Shown: one piece after another, positions 8,927 to 17,969 of the stretch
Numbering within the stretch: position 1 is the stretch's first letter
Layout of the letters: every line of letters starts with the position of its first letter
Assembly: GCF_000934685.1 (NCBI RefSeq)
Contig: NZ_JYNQ01000001.1
Location: 2,034,501 to 2,098,500 of the forward strand
DNA length: 64,000 nucleotides
Direction of reading: 5' to 3'
Source of the DNA: Lacinutrix sp. Hel_I_90
GTDB lineage: Bacteria > Bacteroidota > Bacteroidia > Flavobacteriales > Flavobacteriaceae
Made by a program: the position numbers and the translations under genes
The notes under the pieces: generated by a model
The model's input: the letters and a program-made list of their open reading frames with translations, nothing else
Databases searched by the model: none
Told to the model about the DNA's origin: nothing

Positions 8927-9510
8927 TGAAACAAGGTAAACTTATTGTATTCTCTGCTCCATCAGGATCTGGAAAAACAACCATTGTAAGACATTTACTA
9001 AATCAAGAAGACTTAAACCTTGCGTTTTCAATCTCTGCTACATCCAGAGAAAAACGTGGGCAAGAAAGCCACGCGGAAGACTATTATTTTATGTCTGCCC
9101 AGGAATTTAAGCAGCACATAAAAGATGAAGACTTTCTTGAATGGGAAGAAGTTTACAGAGACAATTTTTATGGAACTCTTAAAACTGAGGTAGAGCGCCT
9201 ATGGGCTTTAGGTAAAAATGTTATTTTTGATATAGACGTATCGGGAGGGCTACGTATAAAGCGAAAATTTCCAGAGCAAACCTTATCTATTTTTGTTAAA
9301 CCGCCAAGTATTGATGAGTTAAAAATTAGGTTAAAAAAGCGAAAAACCGAAAGTGATGATAAAATAAATATGCGTGTTGCTAAAGCTAGTGCCGAATTAG
9401 CGACTGCTCCTCTTTTTGATGTTATTATAGAAAATGATAATTTAGAAAAAGCATTAAAAGAAGCTGAAGCTGTGGTTGGACATTTTATAATCACAGAAAT
9501 TAAAAAATAA
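8926..9510 (+). CDS. gmk: guanylate kinase
   Basis: 194 aa. It phosphorylates GMP to GDP with ATP in the cytoplasm. The P-loop SAPSGSGKTT is at residues 10-19, followed by SATSREKRGQESHAEDYYFMS (GMP-binding region) and DIDVSGGLRIK. Translationally coupled to yicC by a one-base overlap. Confidence 0.95.
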   Translation: MKQGKLIVFSAPSGSGKTTIVRHLLNQEDLNLAFSISATSREKRGQESHAEDYYFMSAQEFKQHIKDEDFLEWEEVYRDNFYGTLKTEVERLWALGKNVIFDIDVSGGLRIKRKFPEQTLSIFVKPPSIDELKIRLKKRKTESDDKINMRVAKASAELATAPLFDVIIENDNLEKALKEAEAVVGHFIITEIKK

Positions 9511-9559
9511 GCATAACGCCTTGATAATACTAAATATCACAACAAGACTTAATTAAATA

Positions 9560-10138
9560 ATGAACATTGGTCTCTATTTTGGTTCTTTTAACCCCATACA
9601 TGTTGGGCATTTAATCATTGCTAACCAACTGGTAGAAAATAGCGATTTGGATGAGATATGGTTTGTAGTAACCCCTCATAATCCTTTTAAAAAGAAGCAG
9701 ACGTTGTTAGCTGATTATCAACGTTTGGAAATGGTCTATCGTGCGACAAAAGACTACACCAAACTAAAGCCAACTGACATAGAGTTTAATTTACCGCAAC
9801 CTAATTATACGATTAACACCCTTACTTATCTCCAAGAGAAACACCCAAAACATCTATTCTCTCTTATTATGGGAGAGGATAATTTAAAAAGTTTTCACAA
9901 GTGGAAAAATTATGAGCGTATACTTCAAAATCATAGTATTTATGTCTATCCAAGAATTTCTGAAGGCACAGTAGAAACACGGTTTACCGGACATAAAAAG
10001 ATTCATAAAATTGATGCACCAATCATAGAACTCTCTTCTACCATGATTCGAAAAGCCATACAGGCAGGAAAAAACGTGAAGCCACTATTGCCTAAAAATG
10101 TTTGGGAGTACTTAGATGAGATGAACTTTTATAGGTAA
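9560..10138 (+). CDS. nadD: nicotinate-nucleotide adenylyltransferase
   Basis: 192 aa. It makes deamido-NAD from nicotinate mononucleotide and ATP. The nucleotidyltransferase motif GSFNPIHVGHL is at residues 8-18, and the SSTMIRKAIQ (ISSTxIR) motif lies near the C-terminus. It follows gmk after 49 bp and is likely the last gene of the yicC operon. Confidence 0.95.
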   Translation: MNIGLYFGSFNPIHVGHLIIANQLVENSDLDEIWFVVTPHNPFKKKQTLLADYQRLEMVYRATKDYTKLKPTDIEFNLPQPNYTINTLTYLQEKHPKHLFSLIMGEDNLKSFHKWKNYERILQNHSIYVYPRISEGTVETRFTGHKKIHKIDAPIIELSSTMIRKAIQAGKNVKPLLPKNVWEYLDEMNFYR

Positions 10139-10249
10139 TTACTCAAACCAAAAAACGAAGAGTACAGTAGGCGTATTACACCCTCAACGTTCCATTTAAC
10201 AAAAAAACAGTTCCTTTTTTAAACCCTAAAAAGTAGCCCGTTTCTTCAT

Positions 10250-10267
10250 TTACGGTTTTTACCGTAA
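10250..10267 (+). promoter_or_regulatory. palindromic operator, copy 0
   Basis: TTACGGTTTTTACCGTAA, a perfect dyad with 7-bp arms. It ends exactly 58 bp before the TTTG of the copy 0 promoter. The following GGCAAAGTGCC is a second perfect dyad. Confidence 0.65.
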
Positions 10268-10325
10268 GGCAAAGTGCCTAAAAACAGTACTTTTCGACGA
10301 ACGACACAAAAACAGCAAAAAAACT

Positions 10326-10357
10326 TTTGTAAGCAAAGTATCATTCGAATAGCTTTG
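10326..10357 (+). promoter_or_regulatory. promoter copy 0, upstream of the small membrane-protein gene
   Basis: TTTG at 10326-10329, 20 bp, TAGCTTTG at 10350-10357. The spacing and boxes fit the Bacteroidota promoter. The ATG of the next gene is 15 bp downstream, giving a short leader. Confidence 0.75.
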
Positions 10358-10372
10358 ATAAAAAATCAAGAA

Positions 10373-10585
10373 ATGAACGTAGTAAGCCCTACAAATTTAT
10401 TGCTTTTATTGTTACTCTTATTTGGCTATACAGCCTTGAGCCTTTGGCTAGTTAACAAAAATTACAATCAGAATAAATTGTATTGGGTTTTTTTCATTTT
10501 AGGTATTCCATTTATAGGCTCAACAGCGTATTTTATTAATTATTTAATCCAAAGTGATTCACATGTATCACTAACAAACAAGTAA
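10373..10585 (+). CDS. small two-TM membrane protein, PLDc_N-like
   Basis: 70 aa from the ATG at 10373; the longer frame from 10274 runs through the operator and promoter and is rejected. It holds two hydrophobic segments (about residues 7-23 and 36-56) and the pattern YWVFFILGIPFIGSTAYFI, which resembles the phospholipase-D nuclease N-terminal (PLDc_N) membrane domain. No catalytic domain is present and the function is unknown. It is the only protein gene directly behind one of the four repeated promoters, and a strong terminator closes the unit. Confidence 0.7.
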   Translation: MNVVSPTNLLLLLLLLFGYTALSLWLVNKNYNQNKLYWVFFILGIPFIGSTAYFINYLIQSDSHVSLTNK

Positions 10586-10615
10586 GCTCATATTTATCCC
10601 TTAAACTATTAGCTT

Positions 10616-10649
10616 AAAAAAAGCCAACTCAAATGAGTTGGCTTTTTTT
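10616..10649 (+). terminator. terminator copy 0
   Basis: Perfect hairpin GCCAACTC-AAAT-GAGTTGGC with A-run and T-run flanks. The same stem recurs behind copies 2 and 3, and in changed form behind copy 1. Confidence 0.85.
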
Positions 10650-10658
10650 GTGCTATTA

Positions 10659-10730
10659 AAAGGTTGGTGAACAAAAAGTCTGCCTTTGGACTGCTTTCGA
10701 TTGGGTATTTTTGAAAAATGCGAATACTAA
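10659..10730 (+). pseudogene. 3' remnant of a DUF2459 gene (copy 1)
   Basis: About 72 bp matching the last codons of the 11117-11788 gene (protein-level CLWTALDSGIFEKYD, here CLWTAFDWVFLKNAN-like after changes) and still followed by a stop near 10730. Only the 3' tip remains. Confidence 0.65.
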
Positions 10731-10801
10731 TAATTGCTATTTCATCCCTTTTTTAATAAAACACTACTTTTTAAAATCCTAAAAAAGCTTTTTTTTGCAC
10801 T

Positions 10802-10819
10802 TTACGGTTTTTACCGTAA
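10802..10819 (+). promoter_or_regulatory. palindromic operator, copy 1
   Basis: Same 18-bp dyad as copy 0, again ending 58 bp before the TTTG of its promoter. Confidence 0.65.
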
Positions 10820-10877
10820 TGCAAACTGCCTAAAAGTACTGTTTTTCGATGAAATGCATAAAAATGCAAAAAAATCA

Positions 10878-10909
10878 TTTGTAGACTCTCTACGTTTGCC
10901 CTAGTTTTG
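10878..10909 (+). promoter_or_regulatory. promoter copy 1
   Basis: TTTG at 10878-10881, 20 bp, TAGTTTTG at 10902-10909. Confidence 0.7.
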
Positions 10910-10913
10910 GTGT

Positions 10914-11036
10914 AGTACTTTACTTAACACTTTTTAAAAAGTAATTATAAAGTATATCTAATAAGTAATGTAGGTTTTATTTATTAGTTTGATTAATAGC
11001 GAAAAAACGCCAGCTCAAATAGAGTTGGCGTTTTTT
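10914..11036 (+). ncRNA. putative small RNA, copy 1
   Basis: A stretch of about 123 nt runs from the expected transcription start, about 5 nt past the -7 box, to an intrinsic terminator. No ORF is present; the one conserved ATG (10968) is followed at once by TAG. Possible conserved folds are TACTTTA (10916-10922) with TAAAGTA (10948-10954) around an inner ACTTTTT/AAAAAGT stem, then a TATTA...TAATA stem, then the terminator. Function unknown. It could also be a decayed leader. Confidence 0.5.
11002..11036 (+). terminator. terminator copy 1
   Basis: Hairpin CGCCAGCTC-AAATA-GAGTTGGCG with A and T flanks. Compared with copies 0, 2 and 3 the outer pair changed on both sides (AG to CG, CT to CG) and one G-T wobble appeared, so the pairing is kept. 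Confidence 0.8.
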
Positions 11037-11116
11037 GTTATATTAAGTTTATCAAGTATAAGTATTCAGAAATAGTCCACTTTATTTAGTAACTTACAAT
11101 TAAAAACAGACCCATT

Positions 11117-11788
11117 ACAAAATACTTAAAAATATTAGGCAAAACAGCACTTTCTCTTGTAGCTTTAATAACTTTATATCTTATTGTGGGTTATGGCTTA
11201 TCTAAAATCAGCATTGATGAAGAAGCCGATGCTCCCGATGAGATGGCTATTTATATTAAAACGAACGGGGTACATACAGACATTATTTTACCTGTAAAGA
11301 CTGAACAAATAAATTGGAGTAAACTAATAAAGCAGGAGCAGATAAATAATGACAGCAATACCTATGAATACATTGCTTTTGGTTGGGGAGACAAAGGTTT
11401 TTATTTAGAAACACCTACCTGGTCTGAATTAAAATTCTCAACGGCATTTAAAGCGACTACTGGTCTTGGCACAACTGCTATGCATACTACTTATTATAAT
11501 CGTTTACAAGAAAATAGTAATTGCCGTAAAATCATGATAAGTAAGGAACAATATGCCCGCATTATTTCACACATTGAAAAAAGCTTTAAAAAAGACGAAA
11601 ATGGCTTTTTTATAAAAATCAAAACCAATGCCCATTATGGCTATACAGATGCCTTTTATGAAGGCACTGGAAGTTATAGCTTATTTAAAACCTGCAATAG
11701 CTGGGCAAATGAAACTTTAAAAGTTAGCGGACAAAAAGCCTGCCTTTGGACTGCCTTAGATTCGGGTATTTTTGAAAAATACGACTAA
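11117..11788 (+). CDS. DUF2459 (TIGR02117) family protein, no standard start codon for full length
   Basis: The frame is open from 11093. The full-length protein, with an N-terminal membrane segment KILGKTALSLVALITLYLIVGYG, would start at ATT 11117 (ITKYLK...), giving 223 aa, the usual family size. The only standard start is GTG at 11186, which gives 200 aa and removes the membrane segment. Family marks are YIKTNGVHTDIILP, FGWGDKGFYLETPTW and the C-terminal TCNSWANETLK. Function is unknown; the family was first noted near urease genes. ATT may be a mutated ATG, so this could be an early pseudogene. Decayed copies lie on both sides. Confidence 0.75.
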   Translation, partial: TKYLKILGKTALSLVALITLYLIVGYGLSKISIDEEADAPDEMAIYIKTNGVHTDIILPVKTEQINWSKLIKQEQINNDSNTYEYIAFGWGDKGFYLETPTWSELKFSTAFKATTGLGTTAMHTTYYNRLQENSNCRKIMISKEQYARIISHIEKSFKKDENGFFIKIKTNAHYGYTDAFYEGTGSYSLFKTCNSWANETLKVSGQKACLWTALDSGIFEKYD

Positions 11789-11864
11789 TGCCAATTGCTG
11801 TTTTCAGCACTTTTTTAATAAAACACTCCTTTTTAAACCCCTAAAAAAACCTTTTTTTATCGAT

Positions 11865-11882
11865 TTACGGTTTTTACCGTAA
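11865..11882 (+). promoter_or_regulatory. palindromic operator, copy 2
   Basis: Same 18-bp dyad as copies 0 and 1, 58 bp before its TTTG, followed by the dyad GGCAAACTGCC. Confidence 0.65.
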
Positions 11883-11940
11883 GGCAAACTGCCCAAAAGC
11901 ACTGTTTTTCGATGAAATGCATAAAAATGCAAAAAATTCA

Positions 11941-11972
11941 TTTGTGGACTCTCTAAGTTACCCCTAGTTTTG
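11941..11972 (+). promoter_or_regulatory. promoter copy 2
   Basis: TTTG at 11941-11944, 20 bp, TAGTTTTG at 11965-11972. Confidence 0.7.
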
Positions 11973-11976
11973 GTGT

Positions 11977-12098
11977 AGTACTTTACTAAACACTTTTAAA
12001 AAGTAATTATAAAGTATATCTAATAAGTAATGTAGGTTTTATTTATTAGTTTGATTAATAGCGAAAAAAAGCCAACTCGTCAGAGTTGGCTTTTTTTT
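11977..12098 (+). ncRNA. putative small RNA, copy 2
   Basis: About 122 nt from the expected start to the terminator, nearly identical to copy 1. It keeps the TACTTTA/TAAAGTA pairing and the ATG-TAG start-stop. Confidence 0.5.
12064..12098 (+). terminator. terminator copy 2
   Basis: Perfect hairpin GCCAACTC-GTCA-GAGTTGGC with a run of eight T. Confidence 0.85.
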
Positions 12099-12111
12099 GT
12101 TCTACTAAATA

Positions 12112-12338
12112 GAACTGCCATAAAATCATAATAAGTTAAGTAAGGAACAATATGCCCGACTTATTTTACACATTGAAAAAAGTTTTAAAAAAGAGGAAAT
12201 GCCTTTTATGAAGGTAGTGGAAGTTATAGCTTATTTAAAACTTGCAATAGCCAGGCAAATGAAACTTTAAAAGTTAGCGGACAAAAAGCCTGCCTTTGGA
12301 CTGCCTTAGATTCGGGTATTTTTGAAAAATACGAATAA
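12112..12338 (+). pseudogene. truncated DUF2459 pseudogene (copy 3)
   Basis: The DNA matches the last 270 or so bases of the 11117-11788 gene, but with small insertions near 12135 and an internal deletion of roughly 50 bp after the AAAAAAGA stretch near 12195, so the frame is broken. It ends with the same codons (GIFEKYE, stop at 12336-12338). The 5' part is missing. Confidence 0.8.
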
Positions 12339-12414
12339 TGACAATTGCTGTTTTCAGCCCTTTTTTAATAAAATACTCCTTTTTAAAAACCTAAAAAAGC
12401 CTTTTTTTATCGAT

Positions 12415-12432
12415 TTACGGTTTTCACCGTAA
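12415..12432 (+). promoter_or_regulatory. palindromic operator, copy 3
   Basis: TTACGGTTTTCACCGTAA: the centre changed by one base but both arms are kept. It ends 58 bp before its TTTG. The second dyad is degenerate here (CGCAAACTACC). Confidence 0.6.
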
Positions 12433-12490
12433 CGCAAACTACCTAAAAGTACTGTTTTTCGATGAAATGCATAAAAATGCAAAAAATTCA

Positions 12491-12522
12491 TTTGTGGACT
12501 CTCTAAGTTTCCCCTAGTTTTG
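12491..12522 (+). promoter_or_regulatory. promoter copy 3
   Basis: TTTG at 12491-12494, 20 bp, TAGTTTTG at 12515-12522. Confidence 0.7.
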
Positions 12523-12526
12523 GGGT

Positions 12527-12648
12527 AGTACTTTACTAAACACTTTCTCAAAAGTAATTATAAAGTATCTCTAATAGGTAATGTAGGTTTTATTTATTAG
12601 TTTGATTAATAGCGAAAAAAAGCCAACTCGTCAGAGTTGGCTTTTTTT
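12527..12648 (+). ncRNA. putative small RNA, copy 3
   Basis: About 122 nt, like copies 1 and 2. The inner stem changed to ACTTT-CTC-AAAAGT, which still pairs. It ends at the terminator at 12615-12648. Confidence 0.5.
12615..12648. terminator. terminator copy 3, shared with the LysM gene
   Basis: Perfect hairpin as in copy 2 with A and T flanks. It can also end the minus-strand transcript of the LysM gene, whose stop is 22 bp away. Confidence 0.85.
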
Positions 12649-12670
12649 ATTTCCGTAAAACAGGAACTTT

Positions 12671-13156
12671 TTAGTCTAAAGCAGGAATACGTAATACTTG
12701 GCCAGGATAAATTTTATCTGGATGCTCTAACATAGGTTTGTTAGCTTCAAAAATAACTGGATATTTCATTGCATTACCATAAAATTTCTTAGCTATTTTC
12801 CCTAAAGTATCTCCACTCACAACCGTGTGAAATTGTGCTTCTGGCTCTTTATGTTCAACCGTCATTTGGTCATCTACCGTGGCAATACCTTCACTGTTTC
12901 CAACCACCAAAATTGTTTTCTCTCTAGTCGCCTGATCTTTTGCCAAACCAGAAACAGTCGCTTTATCATCATCAATATGTACAATTAGTCCTTCAACATC
13001 TAAGTTTAAGTCTCTTATTGTTTCTTCTAATTTTCGTGATGCAGCCGCTTCTTTATCTACTTCTGTAGTAGCAGCTCCTTTAGTATCTTCTTTATCCGTT
13101 TTTCCTAAACCGAAAATTTTAGCTCCCGCGTTTTTAATAAATGAAAATAATCCCAT
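12671..13156 (-). CDS. lysM: BON-LysM domain protein (YgaU/LysM type)
   Basis: 161 aa from the ATG at 13156 (MGLFSFIKNAGAKIFG), the family start; a longer frame to 13222 is not typical. A BON domain spans about residues 40-100 (IRDLNLDVEGLIVHIDDDKATVSG...ILVVGNSEGIATVDD), and a C-terminal LysM spans about 110-160 (HTVVSGDTLGKIAKKFYGN...IYPGQVLRIP). In E. coli the homologue is a potassium-binding protein (Kbp). There is no signal peptide, so it is cytoplasmic. Single gene. Confidence 0.88.
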   Translation of the reverse strand: MGLFSFIKNAGAKIFGLGKTDKEDTKGAATTEVDKEAAASRKLEETIRDLNLDVEGLIVHIDDDKATVSGLAKDQATREKTILVVGNSEGIATVDDQMTVEHKEPEAQFHTVVSGDTLGKIAKKFYGNAMKYPVIFEANKPMLEHPDKIYPGQVLRIPALD

Positions 13157-13322
13157 AGTCTCTGTTTTTTTTAATTGGTTCGTACTACTTGTAAAGTTGG
13201 ATAAATTCTCTTTCAATTGCAACTTATAAATCTTATTATTATCATAAAATCAGTTTAGAGCAAAAAGAAACTGTTTTAAGATTACTCCTTAAACAGTTTC
13301 ATAAAATTAACTAATCAAAATT

Positions 13323-14279
13323 TTATTTTTCTCGTGTGCTTTCGCGTGTGTTTTCTTTTTTTGCTGTGTGTTGCTTACGTTTCTTTTCTGCTGAAGACTT
13401 AGATTTATCTAAAGTCTTTCCTTCTTTTAAATATGCTATATAACCACGTCCTTTAAATTCATAGACTGTTCCTGAAGAAGCGTGAAATAATTCTACTGTC
13501 TGATCATTAATGACACTTAATTCAAATTGTTCGTTATCAAAATAATCATACTCTAATGTCATTATTTTTGAATACATATTCCCTGACACCTCAGCCACAC
13601 CATAAAATCCTGTAAAATCCCAGTATAAGTTATTTGGATTTGTACCAACTTGATCTTGTGAACTTCTAAAGGTGTTGTCATTTCCACCAGCTAAAAACTG
13701 CAGGTAGTTTTCATTATCAAACTCATTCAAAGCACCATATTCACTGGTATATGTTTTTTCCCATGCTTCATATTCTTGCATGAAATAACGAATGTTATCA
13801 TAAAACACATAGTCATAATCAAAATTTGAGCGCTGGTATCCATTTAAAAAGTATGAGGTATCATTAAACGGATTGTATAATTCTATTGTGTTATTATCTA
13901 TTTGATACACATCAAAGCTATCATAACCGTCAACAGTATGATCGATATCCAATATCATATTATTTGTATTGTAATAGCCTATAGGAACCCCAAAGCCGTT
14001 ACCCTGACTTCCAATACCCACTAAATTATTGTTTGCATATAAAGCACCATTTCTAAAAGAAACTGTAAAAGCGATTTGTAAAAAAGGAGTTTCACCATAA
14101 CCAACCGTTTGATTTATATCTACATACCATAATTCATGTGAACGTAACATTTGTTCTAATGTAATTACGGGAACTACTGGTGATCCTCCTGCATAATCAT
14201 CTACAACTACCTCTGTGTAACACGAAGTAAATAAAGTTGCTGTTAAAGCAAATATCGAGAGTAATTTAAATGTTTTCAT
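13323..14279 (-). CDS. conserved flavobacterial lipoprotein with basic tail
   Basis: 318 aa. A lipoprotein signal with lipobox TSC is at residues 18-20. The mature part has repeated aromatic strand patterns (ELWYVDINQTVGYGETPFLQIAFTVSFRNGALYANNNLVGIG), then a very basic, Ser/Lys-rich tail from residue about 285 to the end. Relatives in flavobacteria sometimes carry the misleading name nicotinic acid mononucleotide adenyltransferase; no nucleotidyltransferase motif is visible here, so I do not use it. Function unknown. Confidence 0.7.
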   Translation of the reverse strand: MKTFKLLSIFALTATLFTSCYTEVVVDDYAGGSPVVPVITLEQMLRSHELWYVDINQTVGYGETPFLQIAFTVSFRNGALYANNNLVGIGSQGNGFGVPIGYYNTNNMILDIDHTVDGYDSFDVYQIDNNTIELYNPFNDTSYFLNGYQRSNFDYDYVFYDNIRYFMQEYEAWEKTYTSEYGALNEFDNENYLQFLAGGNDNTFRSSQDQVGTNPNNLYWDFTGFYGVAEVSGNMYSKIMTLEYDYFDNEQFELSVINDQTVELFHASSGTVYEFKGRGYIAYLKEGKTLDKSKSSAEKKRKQHTAKKENTRESTREK

Positions 14280-14409
14280 AATCTGTCGTTTTAAAGATTG
14301 ATATTACAAGGTTTTCAAAAGACGTGCCAAAAATGTTATTCTTTTGATTATCACCTGTTTAATAAATATTATTATTTCCGTATTTTTGAACGAGATTAGA
14401 AATTGATTT

Positions 14410-15411
14410 ATGAGTAAAAAATTAAAATTTGCTGTTTTTGGTTCTGGAAGTTGGGCCACCGCCATTGTGAAGATGTTATGTGAAAACCAGGAAAAGGTAG
14501 GCTGGTATATGCGTAGTGTTTATACTAAAGAGCATCTGTTAAAAGAACAGCACAATCCAAGCTATTTAAGCTCGGTAGAGTTCAATTTAGAAAAACTAAA
14601 GCTTAGTAATGACATTAATGAAATGGTCGCTTATGCCGATGTATTAATCTTTGTTATTCCTTCTGCATTTATTAGTACTGAATTAAAAAAGCTACATTTA
14701 GAACTTACAGATAAGATTGTGGTAAGTGCTGTAAAAGGAATTATCCCAGAAACTGGCTTGCTTTTAGGGCAACACTTTCACAATAATTATAACGTCCCTT
14801 TTGAAAACATTGGCGTTATTGCCGGGCCTTGCCATGCGGAAGAAGTTGCTTTAGAGCGTTTGTCTTACCTCACGATTTCATGTACTGACGCAGAAAAAGC
14901 AACACTTATTGCTGATGCTTTATCGAGTGACTATATAAAAACTAAAATTAGTGATGATGTTATTGGTACTGAGTACGCTGTTATGCTAAAAAACATTTAT
15001 GCCATTGCTGCCGGAATCGCTCACGGATTGGGTTACGGCGATAATTTCCAGAGTGTATTAATGAGTAATGCTATTCGTGAAATGAAACGCTTTATTAAGA
15101 AAATGCATAAAATGAAACGCAACATTAATAACTCGGCTTACCTAGGCGATTTACTGGTAACCGGATATTCTGTTTTTTCGAGAAATAGGATGTTTGGGAA
15201 TATGATTGGTAAAGGTTACACGGTTAAATCTGCACAAATGGAAATGAGTATGGTTGCTGAAGGTTATTATGCCACTAAAAGTGCTTTTGAACTAAATAAA
15301 ACTAATAAAAAGAAAACGCAACTTCCTATTATTAATGCAGTTTATGATATTTTATATGAAGGTAAAGATGCAAAAAAGGTGTTTATAAAATTAACTGATA
15401 AGTTGGATTAA
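14410..15411 (+). CDS. gpsA: NAD(P)H-dependent glycerol-3-phosphate dehydrogenase
   Basis: 333 aa. It reduces dihydroxyacetone phosphate to sn-glycerol 3-phosphate for phospholipid synthesis. The N-terminal Rossmann motif GSGSWATA is at residues 11-18, with SAVKGIIPETG, IAGPCHAEEVA and the catalytic lysine region YAVMLKNIYAIAAGIAHGLGYGDN. A TATTTTTG box at 14381-14388 fits a -7 element. It is divergent from the lipoprotein gene. Confidence 0.93.
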   Translation: MSKKLKFAVFGSGSWATAIVKMLCENQEKVGWYMRSVYTKEHLLKEQHNPSYLSSVEFNLEKLKLSNDINEMVAYADVLIFVIPSAFISTELKKLHLELTDKIVVSAVKGIIPETGLLLGQHFHNNYNVPFENIGVIAGPCHAEEVALERLSYLTISCTDAEKATLIADALSSDYIKTKISDDVIGTEYAVMLKNIYAIAAGIAHGLGYGDNFQSVLMSNAIREMKRFIKKMHKMKRNINNSAYLGDLLVTGYSVFSRNRMFGNMIGKGYTVKSAQMEMSMVAEGYYATKSAFELNKTNKKKTQLPIINAVYDILYEGKDAKKVFIKLTDKLD

Positions 15412-16211: not shown

Positions 16212-17969
16212 ATGATTAAACCTAAAATCGCCACAAAACAACTCTTTCATCTTATAATCCTTTCTTTTATTATCTCATTTACCACTCTCTCTTTTAGAGG
16301 TGGTAATTCTGTTGTTCAAGATCCTAAAAACACTTTAGTAGATTCTATTAAAAAATACCTTTATAATGAACCTGAAAAAGCTATTCCACTCATTAAAAAA
16401 TTGATTAAACAAAGTAAAAAAAACGAGTATGTATTAATGGGCTACGGTGCTTTGGCAGTAGCTCATAACATAAAAGGAGATATAGACAGTACTCTGTTTT
16501 ATTATAACAAAGGCCTTTTTCATTGTAAGAGCCCCGCAGATATTTTTAGATTTAAATATGACATTGGTAAAGTATATGAAAAACAGCATAACTACAAATA
16601 TGCTCTATTATGTTATCAAGAGTGTAATGACATCCTAGAAAAAGAGGGCTTACCAGAACAAAAAGATTTTATAAAACACTCTCTAGCAATCATGGAGAAT
16701 AAAATTGGCCAACCAGAAAAAGCCTTAAAAATATTGCGAGAAATTTATACTTTAGAAAAAAAGAAAGGAAAAAATGTAAAAAAATTAAGGTATACAAGAA
16801 AGTACTTGGCGGAGATCTATTTAAACACTAAAAAACCAGATAGTGCTTTAATACTCATTGATGAGGGAATGCGAGATGCCAAGTCAGAAAACAATAGAGA
16901 ACTTCAATATTATTTCTTTAAATTAAAAGCAGAATGCTTACTATACCAGAAGCAACATAAAAAAGCACTAATAGAGATTGATAGTGCACTAAAAATAGCA
17001 AAAAATCTTAACAACCTAAAATTTAAAAATCAGGCTAATTATCTTTTGTCTCTAACCCAAGGAAATTTAGGAGATTATTTAAATTCTATTACCATAGTTA
17101 AATCTATTCTTAGTACTAATTCAGAAAAAACGGAAGAAGAACTCTCTAAATACTATAAATTACTAGCCACAAACTATGAAGCTATTGACAGCAGTACTCT
17201 TTCTGTTATATATTATAAAAAGTTTACAATTGAAAAACAAAAATTAACAGATAAACGCTTAGCTACCTTAGATAATATTTACAGTATTGATGTAAAGGAA
17301 CAAATAGATAAAAAAGACCATCATAAAAATAAATCTCAATTTTGGCTCTTTCTTTCTCTAGTCTTATGTTTTATTTCACTTACGCTAATTATTACATCAA
17401 AAACTAGAAAAAGAAAGAGCCAAAAACATTTTGATTATCTAATGGTTAAAATAAAAAATCATGAAAATAATGAAGCTTTAATAAAAAATTCAATAATTAC
17501 TATCAAATCCACATCAGAGCAATTTAAAGCTAATGATAAAACTAGTAATGATTCGGTTATGGAGAACGAAGAATTCTTAAAAACTTCAGCAAAAACAGCT
17601 TATATTATTGATAATGAACAGGCAGAAAAAATACTTATAAAAGTAAAAGAATTTGAAGATAAAAAATATTATTTAAATCAGGATTGCACAATGCATAATA
17701 TGGCTAAGCGTCTTAAAACAAACACTTCATACCTCTCACAGGTCATAAACAAACATTTAGATAAAACATTTAGTGCTTATATAAATGAACTAAGAATAAA
17801 CTATGTTATTCTTGAACTCAAAAATAATAAAAGATTAAGATCATATTCTGTACAAGCAATTTCTCAAGAGATTGGCTATAAAAGCACGTATTCCTTTTCA
17901 AAATACTTTAAAGAAGCTACTGGATTGACTCCTTCCGTTTATATCAAAAAAATAAGTAGTATTTCTTAA
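16212..17969 (+). CDS. membrane-anchored TPR-AraC family regulator
   Basis: 585 aa. The N-terminal signal or anchor (about residues 10-28) is followed by a helical TPR region (about 60-345, for example YALLCYQECNDILEKEG, DSALILIDEGMRDAKSENN, KALIEIDSALKIAKNLNN), one membrane segment (about 377-396, WLFLSLVLCFISLTLIIT), a linker, and a C-terminal AraC double helix-turn-helix (about 480-583: MHNMAKRLKTNTSYLSQVIN ... SVQAISQEIGYKSTYSFSKYF). The TPR part should face the periplasm and sense a protein or peptide, with the HTH in the cytoplasm. It lies between two double-glycine peptide genes, so it may control them or sense them; that link is inferred from position only. Confidence 0.8.
   Translation: MIKPKIATKQLFHLIILSFIISFTTLSFRGGNSVVQDPKNTLVDSIKKYLYNEPEKAIPLIKKLIKQSKKNEYVLMGYGALAVAHNIKGDIDSTLFYYNKGLFHCKSPADIFRFKYDIGKVYEKQHNYKYALLCYQECNDILEKEGLPEQKDFIKHSLAIMENKIGQPEKALKILREIYTLEKKKGKNVKKLRYTRKYLAEIYLNTKKPDSALILIDEGMRDAKSENNRELQYYFFKLKAECLLYQKQHKKALIEIDSALKIAKNLNNLKFKNQANYLLSLTQGNLGDYLNSITIVKSILSTNSEKTEEELSKYYKLLATNYEAIDSSTLSVIYYKKFTIEKQKLTDKRLATLDNIYSIDVKEQIDKKDHHKNKSQFWLFLSLVLCFISLTLIITSKTRKRKSQKHFDYLMVKIKNHENNEALIKNSIITIKSTSEQFKANDKTSNDSVMENEEFLKTSAKTAYIIDNEQAEKILIKVKEFEDKKYYLNQDCTMHNMAKRLKTNTSYLSQVINKHLDKTFSAYINELRINYVILELKNNKRLRSYSVQAISQEIGYKSTYSFSKYFKEATGLTPSVYIKKISSIS

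Follow-up and report, generated by a model that had tools for sequence, protein, structure and literature searches.

The 64,000-nucleotide (nt) stretch of Lacinutrix sp. Hel_I_90 DNA analysed here (the window; positions count from its first letter) contains an array of four promoter modules that is probably the target of a NarL-type response regulator encoded elsewhere in the genome. At the upstream end of each module is a palindrome, the dyad, which reads TTACGGTTTTTACCGTAA at 10250, 10802 and 11865 and takes the form TTACGGTTTTCACCGTAA, with one central change, at 12415 in copy 3. These are its only matches in the window at up to three mismatches; shuffled windows gave a mean of 0.13, and four matches were reached in none of 100 shuffles. 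In all four copies 58 bases separate the end of the dyad from a TTTG box, which is followed by N20 and by TAGCTTTG in copy 0 or TAGTTTTG in copies 1–3. The four dyad positions and the constant 58-bp spacing before TTTG-N20-TAGnTTTG, both reported in a first-pass annotation of this DNA, are borne out. Copy 0 leads into a gene for a 70-amino-acid (aa) membrane peptide, and copies 1–3 each lead into a predicted non-coding RNA of about 123 nt, referred to here as Y. Three of the four units therefore look like small RNA genes, a feature beyond the annotation.

10250–10267, +: dyad of copy 0 (pattern match)
10290–10311, +: second motif of copy 0 (TTTTCGAYRAAnnnCACA-like; from the comparison of 31 modules)
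10326–10357, +: promoter of copy 0 (TTTG 10326–10329, N20, TAGCTTTG 10350–10357)
10373–10585, +: open reading frame (ORF) of the 70-aa membrane peptide (weakly PLDc_N-like, E = 0.0015, below cut-off)
10616–10649, +: terminator hairpin of copy 0
10656–10718 and 12137–12340: DUF2459 gene remnants upstream of copies 1 and 3
10802–10819, +: dyad of copy 1
10842–10863, +: second motif of copy 1 (31-module comparison)
10878–10909, +: promoter of copy 1 (TTTG 10878–10881, N20, TAGTTTTG 10902–10909)
10914–11036, +: predicted small RNA Y, copy 1 (start placed according to the promoter)
11186–11788, +: DUF2459 protein gene (3′ part duplicated upstream of copies 1 and 3)
11865–11882, +: dyad of copy 2
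11905–11926, +: second motif of copy 2 (31-module comparison)
11941–11972, +: promoter of copy 2 (TTTG 11941–11944, N20, TAGTTTTG 11965–11972)
11977–12097, +: predicted small RNA Y, copy 2 (start likewise placed)
12415–12432, +: dyad of copy 3, one central change
12455–12476, +: second motif of copy 3 (31-module comparison)
12491–12522, +: promoter of copy 3 (TTTG 12491–12494, N20, TAGTTTTG 12515–12522)
12527–12649, +: predicted small RNA Y, copy 3 (start likewise placed)

Most diverged is copy 0 (73–77% identity with the others over 90 bp), which keeps the module and its spacing, as the annotation had noted. Copies 2 and 3 share 94% identity over 300 bp; compared with copy 1, copy 3 reaches 90% over 249 bp and copy 2 reaches 71% ungapped. 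As members of one duplicated block that includes the DUF2459 3′ part, copies 1–3 are not independent; the window by itself is no proof of regulation, and independent support has to come from other genomes. The DUF2459 remnants at 10656–10718 and 12137–12340 reveal how the array grew.

Conservation of the module

Genomes and loci are labelled G and L, respectively; the genome containing the window is G000, and 13 Lacinutrix genomes are in the set. The 58/20 spacing recurs in L043, L053, L064, L071, L074 and L080. A scan of the GTDB collection that allowed a first gap of 43–73 and a second of 18–22 returned six loci, all from Lacinutrix and all with exactly 58 and 20. As these records are the same genomes as G004, G005, G007, G010, G011 and G012, they add nothing to the count of spacings in other genomes. 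The possibilities that would have spoken against regulation, random spacing or a dyad confined to the duplicated block, were tested among these relatives and are not what is seen: Lacinutrix relatives keep the module.

With a free centre, the dyad (TTACGGTNNNNACCGTAA) has 50 sites in 12 of the 13 Lacinutrix genomes, against two matches of the reversed pattern. In 47 other genomes it has two sites (one each in G023 and G035) against four reversed matches, which is background level; the exact form is thus special to Lacinutrix. Both of these sites lie inside ORFs and were treated as chance and excluded from the spacing shuffle test.

Across 31 modules (including L032 and L174, chance-like in appearance yet kept), the dyad holds 1.81 bits per column, the stretch directly after it 0.66 and the promoter spacer 0.53. 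Between dyad and promoter is a second conserved motif (1.27 bits per column), absent from the annotation, which reads TTTTCGAYRAAatnCACA and begins about 23 bp past the dyad. Its strict form was matched 21 times, in 13 of 38 genomes, and the reversed pattern never; three of the 13 carriers are not Lacinutrix, and the window's own genome, whose copies deviate slightly, is not among them. Its reverse complement contains GCATTTCAT, which resembles the YpdB site (PMC4847170). A LytTR site would have two repeats of 9–11 nt spaced 11–13 nt apart; a degenerate candidate for the other repeat lies 20–21 bp away, as judged by eye. L103 and L105 carry the second motif but no dyad, and there similar copies are spaced about 30 and 21 bp from each other (by eye). 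The further dyad GGCAAAnTGCC proposed in the annotation is indeed present after the dyad in copies 0 and 2 only; as a conserved element it was rejected, because only scattered A positions are kept there across the 31 modules.

Distances from the dyad to TAnnTTTG peak at 82 and at 20–21. Among 99 distinct flanks, TAnnTTTG stands at 82 in 11 (shuffle mean 0.11) and TAnnTTTG/A at 20–21 in 10 (shuffle mean 0.75), and neither peak was reached in 1,000 shuffles (orthologous sites counted separately). With TAnnTTTG at −12 to −5 (PMC9723704), the dyads centre at about −103.5 (spacing 82) and about −41.5 (spacing 20–21). This comparison supports the annotation's suggestion of a regulator bound at fixed distance in an activator-like layout.

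A response regulator and an adjacent small RNA

One of the −41.5 promoters is located directly behind a response-regulator gene (G000:C1:2635501-2636178, beside a TPR histidine kinase gene), where it would drive a conserved predicted RNA, referred to here as X. The order kinase–regulator–X on one strand is found at all of the first ten loci (five Lacinutrix, five other genera), each with the partner kinase gene upstream; a DUF456 gene faces X in eight of the ten, the exceptions being the own genome and G008. With orthologs defined by at least 54% identity, leaving out paralogs at 35–42%, the regulator is present in 30 of 99 genomes. X follows it at 28 of these 30 loci, 17 of them from other genera (exceptions, G001 and the G027 fragment). 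At 16 of 16 X promoters a dyad-like site ends 19–21 bp before TAnnTTTG, with arms that are imperfect in the five other genera, as judged by eye.

The 17-bp dyad TTACGGNTTTNCCGTAA has 27 matches in ten of 99 genomes, all ten of which encode the regulator; five of these matches are immediately downstream of its gene. Outside Lacinutrix, nine of nine dyad genomes have the regulator, which occurs in 18 of 86 genomes (one-sided p = 1.1e-7) and in 18 of the 47 from the same family (p = 3.6e-5), both values uncorrected for kinship. The sole Lacinutrix genome of the 13 without exact dyads, G003, is also one in which the regulator was not found. In shape, TACGGTT-TT-TACCGTA matches the 7-2-7 inverted repeat of NarL sites; NarL is described as activating from −44.5, −66.5 and −77.5 (PMC9314961).

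The regulator carries a receiver domain (Pfam Response_reg, 4.3e-9, 37 bits against a cut-off of 30.2) and aligns over nearly its full length with the RcsB and NarL structures, RcsB giving the best matches among solved structures; the alignment runs through the helix-turn-helix (HTH) region (RcsB 1.1e-11, NarL 5.8e-5). The own-genome kinase matches HATPase_c (2.4e-10) and TPR_12, with HisKA_3 below cut-off.

A structured model of five Lacinutrix X sequences found X in 11 of 13 Lacinutrix genomes (E ≤ 8.4e-12) and gave weak matches in seven of 86 genomes outside the genus, five of them supported by place; those in G087 and G026 were judged chance, the X of G026 being located elsewhere. A model of 17 non-Lacinutrix X sequences matched 105 of 397 Flavobacteriaceae genomes once each (E ≤ 1e-4), spanning 70 of 237 genera. 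In the 17-sequence alignment, eight of the ten base pairs of the terminator show compensatory changes that preserve pairing; the UCAAC/GUUGA stem is nearly invariant and therefore cannot be judged by covariation. Rfam returned nothing up to E 0.1 for six X loci. In the X RNAs of G018, G029, G031, G069, G071 and G079, the terminator loop has GAGGTGAGAGA, complementary to CCUC in the first loop, suggesting a possible loop–loop contact.

Small RNA Y and the coding units

Y is predicted to consist of a 5′ hairpin, a hairpin with loop UGUAGGUU, single-stranded UUUGAUUAAUAGCGA and a terminator. Common to the Y RNAs are a UAGG-loop hairpin, a single strand with UUAAUAGCG and the terminator, and UUAAUAGCG and the terminator hairpin are conserved in 14 aligned copies. 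The middle hairpin, with differing arms, has 11–12 bp in nine of 15 copies, 6–7 bp in three and 2 bp in both G010 copies; in one G011 copy the scan picked the terminator. These values come from single folds and a hairpin scan, used in place of RNAalifold, which gave a different middle helix. In the intervals inspected by eye, no shared ORF was evident behind the promoter.

One Y unit each is found in G002, G004, G005, G007 and G012, two each in G009 and G011, two together with a coding unit in G010, one together with one coding unit in G008, and three plus a coding unit in the own genome. Peptides similar to that of copy 0 lie behind modules in L146 (G008) and L071 (G010). The array sits between nadD (by eye) and a LysM gene in the window and in G004, G005, G010, G011 and G012; G009 shares the LysM side only, and in G007 neither neighbour is present.

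A sequence model of the Y core and terminator matched ten of 13 Lacinutrix genomes at E ≤ 9.3e-19, and the remainder less strongly (G003 4.6e-10, G001 5.4e-5, G006 0.002). Outside Lacinutrix the model matched 46 genomes at E ≤ 0.01 (best 7.3e-7); many of these matches cover the terminator part only, and none was taken as Y. No Rfam family exceeded its gathering score in window 9000–14500 or in nine further loci scanned. Below threshold, that interval gave GibS (28.5 bits against 115) and BTnc231 (30.4 against 80.4), the latter also in two of three further Y loci; Thr and Phe leader matches, far below their gathering scores and overlapping terminators, were set aside.

Genes near other dyads

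The 50 Lacinutrix dyads were tallied by neighbouring gene, several of them named by eye. They fall at array units (11), at small secreted peptide plus Porph_ging-type genes (9), downstream of tsaE and ahead of a 47-aa exported peptide (6), at a beta-barrel gene beside lepA (5), at peptidase M57 (5), at X (4) and before an M12B or M4 peptidase gene (3). Each of the last three lies behind one peptidase gene and 149–216 bp before the next. The own genome has a tandem series of secreted metallopeptidase genes (M43, M4, M36, M12B; G000:C1:2358700-2372500; L041, L039, L037) near an ABC-transporter ATPase gene. M43 comes first in the series, and the M12B, M36 and M4 genes each have a dyad 149–165 bp upstream, one of the three dyads being exact and two degenerate.

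A further 26 dyads come from nine other genera: five downstream of tsaE, five ahead of X, one next to lepA and one preceding a small-peptide unit at spacing 82. Others lie beside an ABC ATPase (oligopeptide type, L225) or M12B, M43, S8 or C10 peptidases, and several have no clear target. From their position, we infer that these neighbouring genes are under dyad control.

The 47-aa exported peptide (L045:3089-3232; orthologs in L046, L049, L062, L073 and L079, and L222 in G080) reads MKTKKYVLALAIFGG...KVPTHG in Lacinutrix and has no Pfam match. Behind the dyads of L044, L048, L051 (second site), L070 and L075 is a conserved leader of about 200 nt (by eye), with TTAAGAAGC, repeated GCTTCTTAA and mostly a AACCTGCGCAGGTT-like palindrome, preceding a small secreted peptide gene; it looks like a switchable leader RNA. 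Elsewhere in the window, at 16212–17969, is a further regulator, a TPR protein with an AraC-type HTH (HTH_18).

A model of the regulon and its alternatives

We propose, with a probability of about 0.75, that binding of the NarL-type regulator to the dyad activates X, the Y array and a regulon of extracellular proteolysis. Motif, spacing, RNA anatomy, synteny and co-occurrence are read directly from the sequences; from these we infer binding, activation, expression, RNA targets and signal. The dyad would be the binding site of the NarL/FixJ-type response regulator encoded beside the TPR histidine kinase. Once activated and centred at about −41.5 over the −33 region, the regulator would switch on X just downstream of its own gene; centred at about −103.5, together with a second, LytTR-like site at about −64, it would switch on the Y genes and the one small membrane-peptide gene. 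Duplication, by which the array expanded in the own genome, would increase the dosage of the RNA. Both small RNAs, X and Y, would act post-transcriptionally on mRNAs, by base-pairing or via an RNA-binding protein. As the regulon would also take in secreted metallopeptidases, an oligopeptide-transporter ATPase and small exported peptides, its output is probably extracellular protein degradation; members of the host family secrete many peptidases. The dyad-linked exported peptides could be part of the cassette's signal. The broader picture, in which a widespread flavobacterial cassette of kinase, NarL-type regulator and adjacent small RNA controls extracellular proteolysis without CsrA through small RNAs, and Lacinutrix gained a tandem array, has about an even chance of being right.

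Several observations weigh against this model. On the regulator, the Pfam model for a LuxR-type HTH stays below cut-off (GerE reaches 15.8 of 23.5 bits in L136 and is not listed for L038), and −103.5 is a long distance for touching RNA polymerase directly. The exact 17-bp dyad is missing from nine of the 18 non-Lacinutrix regulator genomes, whose X promoters bear variants such as TTACGGGTTTCCCGCAG (by eye). The reversed control of TTACGGNTTTNCCGTAA gave six matches in six genomes, three with the regulator, so a few of the 27 dyad matches may be chance. G001 has the regulator and three dyads, yet X is missing behind the regulator and Y is not fully matched, and the assembly of G003 is only 89% complete. 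Seven of the 50 Lacinutrix dyads have no clear class and, the genomes being related, the co-occurrence and shuffle tests overstate independence.

A different dimeric factor, for example of the Crp/Fnr type, might bind the dyad, the response regulator merely adjoining X. ACGGT-N4-ACCGT fits the 5-4-5 site of such proteins, a centre at −41.5 is typical for class II Crp/Fnr activation, and the own genome has three HTH_Crp_2 matches over cut-off, one with internal stop codons. A CRP site at −41.5 is likewise mentioned in PMC9314961. The co-occurrence of dyad and regulator gene across genera and the fixed place of X behind the regulator (28 of 30 loci) weaken this explanation, for which Crp-type proteins were counted in the own genome only, and we consider it unlikely. 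Slightly less probable still is that the factor is a repressor, covering the −33 box from −41.5 and acting through looping or a partner at −103.5: the −41.5 sites do overlap the −33 region, but those at −103.5 would leave the whole TTTG/TAnnTTTG promoter free, and the two positions, 62 bp apart and near six helical turns, would favour activation.

That the Y units are leftovers or leaders of lost peptide genes rather than regulatory RNAs is suggested by the peptide ORFs behind the same type of module in copy 0, G008 and G010. It is nevertheless improbable given the retention of UUAAUAGCG and terminator in the aligned copies, the presence of core and terminator in ten of 13 Lacinutrix genomes, the 11–12-bp hairpin formed by differing arms in nine of 15 copies and the lack of a shared ORF by eye. 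Copies 1–3 were clearly duplicated along with the DUF2459 fragment; an array that is nothing but a recent duplication devoid of regulatory meaning is contradicted by the same-spacing units in other Lacinutrix genomes and is very improbable.

Comparison with known systems

A literature search of open papers found no earlier description of this kinase–regulator–small RNA cassette. The proposed system is reminiscent of Gac/Rsm of Pseudomonas, in which the regulator GacA is of the LuxR/NarL type. There, too, a response regulator, a conserved palindromic upstream activating sequence and several small RNAs (RsmX, RsmY, RsmZ), one of them duplicated as tandem rsmX-1/rsmX-2, come together (PMC7911923, PMC2375449). 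The NCBIfam UvrY/SirA/GacA model picks up the regulator at 3.9e-7, far below its cut-off. The systems differ in that X adjoins the regulator gene and the promoters here follow the TTTG/TAnnTTTG pattern. CsrA (PF02599) was over cut-off in none of 40 genomes (one weak match, 20.1 bits, in G051) in a search whose control found it in three of 14 known genomes. Each of 28 X and 15 Y sequences has 0–2 GGA motifs, whereas 6–10 are reported for Rsm RNAs (PMC7911923). With no CsrA found in those 40 genomes and no multiple GGA motifs, the system is not a member of Gac/Rsm.

RcsB, the best structural match of the regulator, activates the small RNA RprA in enterobacteria, as is predicted here for X. The dyad is different, and X adjoins the regulator gene, whereas the RprA gene is not known to be adjacent to rcsB.

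The closest multicopy small RNA family in the phylum is FopS of Bacteroides thetaiotaomicron, a paralogous family with canonical sigma-ABfr promoters and an intrinsic terminator (PMC11697453). No match named FopS was found by Rfam in window 9000–14500, for a copy of Rfam in which the presence of a FopS model was not established; with no Rfam model match, and GibS at 28.5 bits against 115, membership in FopS or GibS is unsupported. Unlike those families, X and Y have the dyad, and X has a fixed place behind a regulator. The transcription factors behind GibS and FopS in Bacteroides are described as still elusive or unknown (PMC11697453); the present analysis puts forward a particular regulator together with its site, its positions and two small RNA families. 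In Flavobacterium psychrophilum, deletion of the structured small RNA Rfp18 lowers two secreted metalloprotease mRNAs (PMC9723704). The dyads described here likewise precede secreted metallopeptidase genes, and Rfp18 may be related to this system.

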